NCBI GenBank assembly: GCA_013151865.1 | Contig: JAADHN010000083.1 | Location: forward strand, 1-33,068 | Length of the DNA stretch: 33,068 bases | Direction of reading: 5' to 3' | Source of the DNA: Kiritimatiellota bacterium | Lineage (GTDB): Bacteria; Verrucomicrobiota; Lentisphaeria; Oligosphaerales; JAADHN01 | Shown: piece by piece, positions 19,225 through 20,718 of the stretch | Position numbering within the stretch: position 1 is the stretch's first letter | How the letters are laid out: the number at the start of each line of letters is the position of its first letter | The notes under the pieces: model-generated | What the model saw: only the letters and a program-made list of their open reading frames with translations | Told to the model about the DNA's origin: nothing | The model's database searches: none | Made by a program: the position numbers and the translations under genes

Positions 19225-20145
19225 TTGATACCTGTTCTTGAAGCAATGTTGTTGCCGCTGGCGCTCTCCACACCGTGGCGTAGCGCCGTGCACTGGGCCG
19301 GCCGGCTCTTGTTCATCGCGGTTGCGGTATATGTCGGATTCGGGCTTCTCCTGGTTCTGTACCAGGGGCAGCTCGTGTTCGTGCCCGGCCGGGAGGTGAC
19401 TGCCACCCCGTCAAGCGTGGGGTTGAGCTTTGACGACCTCCGGCTGTCCGTGGGCGGACCGGGGGACTATATCCACGCATGGTATGTGCCGGGACCGGAT
19501 GGGCCGGAGCGCGGGACCGTTCTGATCTGTCACGGAAACGCCGGCACCCTCAGCGACCGCCTCGACACGATCCAGGACTTCCATCGCATGGGGTTTGCCG
19601 TGCTGATCTTCGATTACCGCGGCTATGGGAACAGCCCGGGACGCCCCAGCGAGAAAAAGACCTACGCCGATGCCGAGGCGGCGTGGCGCTACCTGGTCGA
19701 CACGCGCAAGACGGCCCCGGAGCGGATTTGCCTGTTCGGTCGTTCCCTGGGCGGGGCCGTGGCGGCGCGGCTCGCCTTGGGCCGGAATCCCGGGGCCCTC
19801 GTGCTCGAGTCGACATTCACATCGGTTCCGGACATGGCCCGCAGACTCTACCCCCTGTACCCGGCTCGACTGTTGGCTCGCATCAGGTACGACACCCTCT
19901 CAATCGTGGGGCGACTCACCTGTCCGATCATTGTCGTGCATAGCCCCGACGACGAAATCATCCCGTACGAAATGGGCAAACGGTTGTTCGCCGCCGCGCC
20001 GGGGATCAAGCGGTTCATCGAGATCGAGGGCGGCCATAATGAGGGCTTCATTACCTCTGGTACGGCCTACCTGGGTCCGCTCGATGCGGCGCTGGCGGAG
20101 TTTTTTCCTCGGGTTACGGTTGCCCCGAAGCAGCGGCCACAGTAG
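19225..20145 (+). CDS. Membrane-anchored alpha/beta hydrolase (ABHD12/13, BEM46-like)
   Basis: The product is 306 residues. One transmembrane helix (27-46, RLLFIAVAVYVGFGLLLVLY) is followed by YQGQLVFVPG, the usual lead-in of the BEM46/ABHD13 group. The catalytic triad is complete: Ser174 in GRSLGG, Asp243 in HSPDDEIIP and His271 in GGHNEGF. The oxyanion-hole motif HGNAGT is at 103. It is probably a serine esterase, thioesterase or lipase facing outward from the membrane; the substrate is unknown. The TTG at 19225 is preceded by GAGG (19212-19215) at good spacing and is preferred. ATG 19246 is the alternative and would keep the membrane helix. It lies 155 bp after priA. Confidence 0.9.
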   Translation: MIPVLEAMLLPLALSTPWRSAVHWAGRLLFIAVAVYVGFGLLLVLYQGQLVFVPGREVTATPSSVGLSFDDLRLSVGGPGDYIHAWYVPGPDGPERGTVLICHGNAGTLSDRLDTIQDFHRMGFAVLIFDYRGYGNSPGRPSEKKTYADAEAAWRYLVDTRKTAPERICLFGRSLGGAVAARLALGRNPGALVLESTFTSVPDMARRLYPLYPARLLARIRYDTLSIVGRLTCPIIVVHSPDDEIIPYEMGKRLFAAAPGIKRFIEIEGGHNEGFITSGTAYLGPLDAALAEFFPRVTVAPKQRPQ

Positions 20146-20280: not shown

Positions 20281-20310
20281 GCACGGGGGGCGTGGACCGG
20301 TCCCCCGTGC
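20281..20310. repeat. Strong inverted repeat, 9-bp perfect stem
   Basis: GCACGGGGG and CCCCCGTGC pair around a 12-nt loop. The inner GGACCGGTCC (20294-20303) is itself a perfect 10-bp palindrome, so two alternative folds exist. It lies 136 nt after the alpha/beta hydrolase stop and lacks a T-run. It shares CGCACG and GCGTGGAC with the 29-bp repeats ~120 bp downstream, so it could be a degenerate relative of them. Confidence 0.5.
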
Positions 20311-20397: not shown

Positions 20398-20487
20398 AAG
20401 GAAGCCGCACGCGCGTGGACGGACCGTTTTGGTGGTGCCGCTCCCGGACCATGAAAACAAGGAAGCCGCACGCGCGTGGACGGACCG
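20398..20487 (+). repeat. Two identical 29-bp repeats separated by 32 bp (CRISPR-like unit)
   Basis: Positions 20398-20426 and 20459-20487 are identical over exactly 29 bp; the flanking bases differ on both sides. The interval 20427-20458 is exactly 32 bp and unique within the window. The repeat begins AAGGAAGCCGCAC, has the perfect palindrome CACGCGCGTG in its core and ends GGACGGACCG. Both the 29/32 spacing and the ending resemble type I-E CRISPR repeats, whose consensus (from memory) has CCGCxC-GCGxGGA and ends in ACCG. With only two copies, no AT-rich leader and no cas gene in the window, a small dispersed repeat is equally possible. Confidence 0.6.
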
Positions 20488-20718
20488 CCGTAGGGTTTTC
20501 CTGCGCCGCTTGCCTGCGGAGATCGCGAGTTCCAGGTGCTCGCGTCGGCTCCTTGAGTATTGATACTGATCGTCTCGAAACAATCCGGACCGCACGCCGA
20601 CTCGCAGGCTCTGCAACATTTTCCGGACCGTTCTGAGATGCTTCGCAAAACGAGAAGTCCTCCATTAAAGCCGTGCGCGCACCGCAGATTGTTCCGTGTT
20701 GTCGCTCGGGGAACGGAC

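Follow-up and report, generated by a model that had tools for sequence, protein, structure and literature searches.

The 33,068-nt window analysed here, from a contig of a Kiritimatiellota bacterium, holds two copies of a 29-bp sequence that enclose a single interval of 32 bp in the DNA between an alpha/beta-hydrolase gene and a GH123-type gene (Table 1). Direct reading and a pattern search agree that the copies differ by 0 mismatches, as an earlier note on this DNA had described, whereas the number of matches to such a 29/32 repeat pattern expected from 100 shuffles is 0; the similarity of the pair extends to 32 bp at 97%. The note had also likened this spacing to the geometry of a type I-E clustered regularly interspaced short palindromic repeat (CRISPR) array, and the likeness is borne out, since the period equals that of the I-E array that the same assembly carries on contig C123.

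Table 1. Coordinates of the repeat unit and of the genes that flank it.
Feature	Position	Strand	Remarks
Alpha/beta-hydrolase gene	19225..20145	+	
Repeat copy 1 (29 bp)	20398..20426	+	AAGGAAGCCGCACGCGCGTGGACGGACCG; leader-side copy if oriented as I-E; I-E-like in register
Interval, 32 bp (33 with the preceding G)	20427..20458	+	unique; weak imperfect hairpin; no protospacer found
Repeat copy 2 (29 bp)	20459..20487	+	identical to copy 1
GH123-type gene	from ~20719	+	

The pair is unique in the genome (6,213,565 bases in 176 contigs, an assembly that is 97% complete): a search that allowed up to 3 mismatches found no further copy of the 29-mer, and nothing related to the 113-bp unit turned up in the rest of the genome, where the strongest match has an E of 0.175. 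The suggestion in the earlier note of a dispersed repeat that mimics an array, of the repetitive extragenic palindrome (REP) kind, is thereby refuted. A tandem repeat is likewise ruled out, the unit being unreported by Tandem Repeats Finder, and a longer, diverged duplication was rejected because the interval is unlike its flanks. The interval, the second copy and the downstream DNA share one open frame, for which Pfam gave nothing at E<=10 and tblastn nothing above chance level, so a gene remnant was also set aside. No cas gene was found among the window genes (0 of the 8 first scanned with Pfam and 0 of 2 further long reading frames), and no Rfam match was found in the window.

The position of the unit, in a 574-bp gap upstream of the GH123-type gene and on the same strand, together with a 10-bp perfect palindrome inside the repeat unit, could point to a pair of operator sites that regulate this gene. 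We consider this very improbable, because operators seldom agree over as many as 29 exact bases, because a genome-wide search allowing 3 mismatches revealed no comparable site outside the pair, and because no sigma-70-like promoter was found near the unit on the strand of the GH123-type gene.

Two other features share the gap. A strong hairpin (GCACGGGGGG...TCCCCCGTGC) lies 3' of the hydrolase gene at 20281-20310 and lacks a T run. Downstream of the unit, positions 20553-20657 (the extent of the model hit; best conserved at 20563-20650) are one copy of a dispersed hairpin-like repeat of ~70-85 bp with CGTCTCG...CGAGACG ends, which occurs in both orientations, apparently between genes, with at least 117 matches at E<=0.01 in this genome and weaker matches in 4 of 24 genomes of the same order.

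The background of spaced repeats was obtained by scanning 104 stretches of the genome (2,000,788 bases, about a third of the total) for exact direct repeats with a period of 20-300, leaving rows made of N in L237 out of the count of spaced pairs. Spaced exact pairs of at least 20 bp occur at 14 loci. Two of these are CRISPR arrays (L042, type III-B; L193, type I-E), seven, probably coding, have periods that are multiples of 3, and at four (L098, L062, L212 and L094 (1892)) the pairs lie within tandem-type amplifications. The 20398-20487 unit is thus the sole clean non-coding repeat-insert-repeat among the 14, and it and the genuine I-E array are the only loci with a period of 59-63.

That the genome has spaced duplications of other lengths and periods is consistent with a local templated duplication, in which a replication or repair error would have placed a copy of 29 bp at a distance of 32 bp, leaving a functionless unit whose I-E geometry and resemblance are coincidental. 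We regard this as the main rival explanation, though not our first choice. Against it, a length of 28-29 bp with a period of exactly 61 would be met by ~0.1% of random spaced pairs (a rough estimate), from a supply of perhaps a few spaced pairs per genome, and the other non-coding pairs sit in tandem amplifications, whereas this unit is clean.

Resemblance of the 29-mer to type I-E repeats

The earlier note had likened the repeat's end and core (CCGCAC, GCGTGGA) to type I-E repeats. As a reference, 387 genomes of the phylum were searched, 28 of which have Cas6e; stretches were taken from 27 of these, and the I-E arrays extracted from 21 all have a main period of 61. The best in-register similarity of the 29-mer to the relatives' I-E repeats is 19/29, a level reached against the 21 references by 2.8e-4 of 32,619 sampled genome 29-mers. 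Its position-weight score is equalled by 4.5e-4 of 3,995,010 genome 29-mers, and column-shuffled references attain its real score in 0.2-0.4% of 1000 trials. Other non-I-E spaced pairs of the genome have similarities of 7-15/29. This resemblance therefore holds in that it exceeds chance against the 20-21 extracted repeats, and local duplication would have to produce it by coincidence, at a rate of ~3e-4 to 1e-2. On the other side, the core CACGCGCGTG, a simple GC palindrome, is easily met by chance.

The resemblance extends only in part to the invariant positions and the stem. The 29-mer keeps 9 of 14 I-E invariant positions (columns 5, 6, 7, 19 and 23 fail), and the Cas6e stem (columns 6-11 with 16-21) retains 3 of 6 pairs, compared with 6/6 in 21/21 reference repeats. 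There is no AT-rich leader: the GC content of the upstream 60 nt is 72% (0.72), against 0.27-0.57 in all 21 reference leaders. Since the position-weight log-odds is negative (-5.15 bits), the 29-mer is rejected as an I-E repeat. Because similarity above chance is combined with failure at the invariant positions, stem, leader and log-odds, the 29-mer is, as judged by sequence comparison, I-E-like and yet not an I-E repeat.

The two copies deviate from the I-E consensus in the same ways and do not differ from each other at all. This argues against an array that decayed copy by copy, since decay would strike each copy independently. Either duplication acted on a site that was non-canonical from the outset, as off-target integration predicts, or the I-E resemblance is coincidental. 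The relic array and the mini-array acted on in trans, both proposed in the earlier note, are poorly supported: five of the 14 invariant positions and half of the six stem pairs fail identically in both copies, the leader is missing, no cas gene was found nearby, and similarity to the host's own repeat is only 14/29.

A broader version of these ideas is a degenerate ectopic mini-array derived from I-E repeats, which would serve as a CreA/CreR-like regulatory guide in trans or be all that is left of a second I-E array that decayed. In its favour, the last 8 nt of the 29-mer (ACGGACCG), at the position of the 5' handle of a CRISPR RNA, match the relatives' ATGGACCG at 7/8. In addition, the last 14 nt of the interval, CGGACCATGAAAAC, are the same as the two ends of an I-E repeat from a relative joined without its stem, a likeness that was noticed post hoc and carries little weight; 14-mers of this stem-less kind occur 5 times in 2.0 Mb. 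We nevertheless judge the mini-array unlikely. Its copies are identical, whereas CreA repeats are described in passages of PMC9458426 as mutually divergent; no linked cas locus was found among the window genes scanned, and no convincing partial self-target within the 33-kb window. Neither copy has an intact in-register stem, and a decaying array should not decay identically.

CRISPR systems of the host genome

A search with an I-E repeat model built from the I-E repeats of 20 relatives located canonical I-E repeats 61 bp apart on contig C123 (E 7.5e-11 and 1.6e-9). In this array (L193:3357-3540) the contig end leaves one repeat partial; two repeats are full, the terminal one is truncated, the spacers are 32 nt long, and the repeat keeps 14/14 invariant positions. 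The composition of C123 fits the genome, yet lies at the 94th percentile of distance. Because the array is a genuine I-E array with a period of 61, this period is the host's own.

The absence of cas genes asserted in the earlier note is correct for the neighbourhood of the unit and incorrect for the genome, in which a type III-B locus (Cas10/Cmr2, Cmr3, Cmr4, Cmr6, Cmr1, Cas1, Cas2, a CARF protein and a CRISPR-associated adenosine deaminase) lies on contig C22. Its array, at the contig end, has 37-bp repeats and a 40-bp spacer; as the 37-bp repeat is unrelated to the 29-mer, it was rejected as a cognate repeat. Within the III-B locus, L042:10593-12749 encodes a 718-aa protein that combines an adenosine deaminase domain with a Cas_NE0113 (CARF-type) match, and next to it are a second CARF protein and a Cas1 of 473 aa that is extended at its N-terminus.

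Origin of the unit

An exact, repeat-length duplication of a target around one spacer-length insert, outside any array, is what integration at an off-target site would leave, and we tentatively place first the interpretation that the 20398-20487 unit was left behind by one off-target (ectopic) event in which the type I-E Cas1-Cas2 of this lineage integrated a spacer, an explanation absent from the list in the earlier note. In E. coli, off-target integration was reportedly observed by Nivala et al. 2018. Here, Cas1-Cas2 would have integrated one 32-33 bp prespacer, presumably of foreign origin, at an intergenic site with partial likeness to an I-E repeat. Integration would duplicate the 28-29 bp target, giving a target copy, the insert and a second target copy, and no further spacer would have been added after the first. 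The unit is not a working CRISPR array and is probably inert, since an element that has neither a leader nor a proper stem-loop is not expected to be transcribed as an array or cut by Cas6e.

Several observations weigh against off-target integration. The interval has no convincing match in phages, plasmids, viral contigs or the rest of the genome, and the comparison with phages and plasmids that the earlier note had proposed came back empty in this sense: phages gave no match, and plasmids gave only weak partial matches that lie outside the interval. A search of IMG/VR with 20-mers of the interval gave 0 matches; one 18-mer and two 17-mers used as seeds led to four IMG/VR stretches, the best of which agrees at 21/32 overall, and matches in the host's own genome are short and at chance level. 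No I-E cas gene was found in the assembly either: Cas6e and Cse1 were not found, no Cas3 scored over the cut-off, and the sole Cas1 found belongs to the III-B locus; because the assembly is 97% complete and the C123 array runs off the contig end, however, this is weak evidence of absence. To these points are added the negative log-odds given above and a similarity of 14/29 between the 29-mer and the host's C123 repeat, a level attained by 1.3% of 29-mers. Off-target integration sites are said in passages of PMC9456107 to favour IHF-like motifs, and none was found near this site; one match with 1 mismatch lies ~1.4 kb off, against 0.83 expected.

Much of this can be read in favour of local templated duplication, which is consistent with the lack of cas genes, a leader or a protospacer, with the weak similarity to the host's own I-E repeat and with an interval that is itself unremarkable in folding. 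The interval folds as DNA with a z of approximately -2.5, which is unremarkable because ~12% of window 32-mers fold equally well; a hairpin-bearing mobile element was rejected on the same count. The two explanations, off-target integration and coincidence, are placed close together because, although the geometry is expected under off-target integration, no I-E cas genes were recovered and no IHF-like motif was found near the site. Under neither explanation does the unit appear to have a function.

Other matches to this DNA were examined and rejected. A 23/32 match to the interval in a genome of the same order lies within a coding gene, and the other matches to same-order DNA look like chance or coding matches. 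No homologous locus in which an empty, single-copy site could be sought was found in the compared genomes, which are of the same order or more distant. A 21-mer match in a Chloroflexi metagenome-assembled genome occurs just once there, in a stretch crowded with reading frames.

Comparison with known systems and implications

With the type I-E arrays of the same order and phylum (the 21 extracted and that on C123), the unit shares a 29-bp repeat, a 32-bp spacer and a period of 61, and the 29-mer has the 3' end ACCG in register, in addition to its 19/29 similarity to the closest repeats. Unlike these arrays, it consists of two copies only, keeps 9/14 invariant positions and 3/6 stem pairs, has a GC-rich upstream region and has no cas genes nearby. 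False-CRISPR elements, namely tandem, STAR-like and simple repeats as treated in passages of PMC5294841, likewise mimic a repeat-spacer arrangement without cas genes, whereas this unit is not tandem, not dispersed and not of low complexity.

The ectopic repeats of CreA/CreR, as portrayed in parts of PMC9458426 and PMC12737573, are also a repeat pair, though degenerate, around one spacer-like segment; here the copies are identical and unlinked to cas, and no self-target was seen in the window. In the I-E operon region of a relative (L145:9256-9335, on contig C32 of genome G231), an isolated 19-bp exact pair with a period of exactly 61 lies ~765 bp upstream of a long open reading frame (854 aa, in the cas3 position). 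In 433 kb of I-E neighbourhoods no other isolated pair has a period of 61; this one has 14-15/29 similarity to that relative's own repeat and is possibly a CreR-like element.

A parallel to the reading as off-target integration is non-canonical spacer integration, or 'neo-CRISPR' (Nivala et al. 2018, as cited in PMC11687729), which shares one spacer-sized insert between identical target copies outside an array. Non-canonical integration outside arrays on Cas1-Cas2 overexpression is attributed to Nivala et al. 2018 in passages of PMC11788318 and PMC9456107. In contrast to the products of overexpressed Cas1-Cas2, the present unit lies in a natural genome, with no IHF-like motif at the site and no I-E cas genes found in the assembly. 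A limited search of titles and abstract openings in the open-licence literature returned no report of natural off-target units of this kind.

If the geometry is a coincidence, the unit is a warning that an exact 29/32 arrangement alone does not make a CRISPR. The unit could, on the other hand, be a natural fossil of off-target CRISPR adaptation, in which I-E Cas1-Cas2 founded a one-spacer pseudo-array in the intergenic DNA of a wild bacterium, a view that we hold with less than even confidence. It would then provide a natural case of spacer integration outside an array, a process otherwise met here only as cited laboratory work, and would offer a simple genome-wide test, namely whether clean repeat-insert-repeat units in I-E genomes accumulate at a period of 61. 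Such a one-spacer pseudo-array could be a precursor stage for new arrays or for guides of the CreA/CreR kind.
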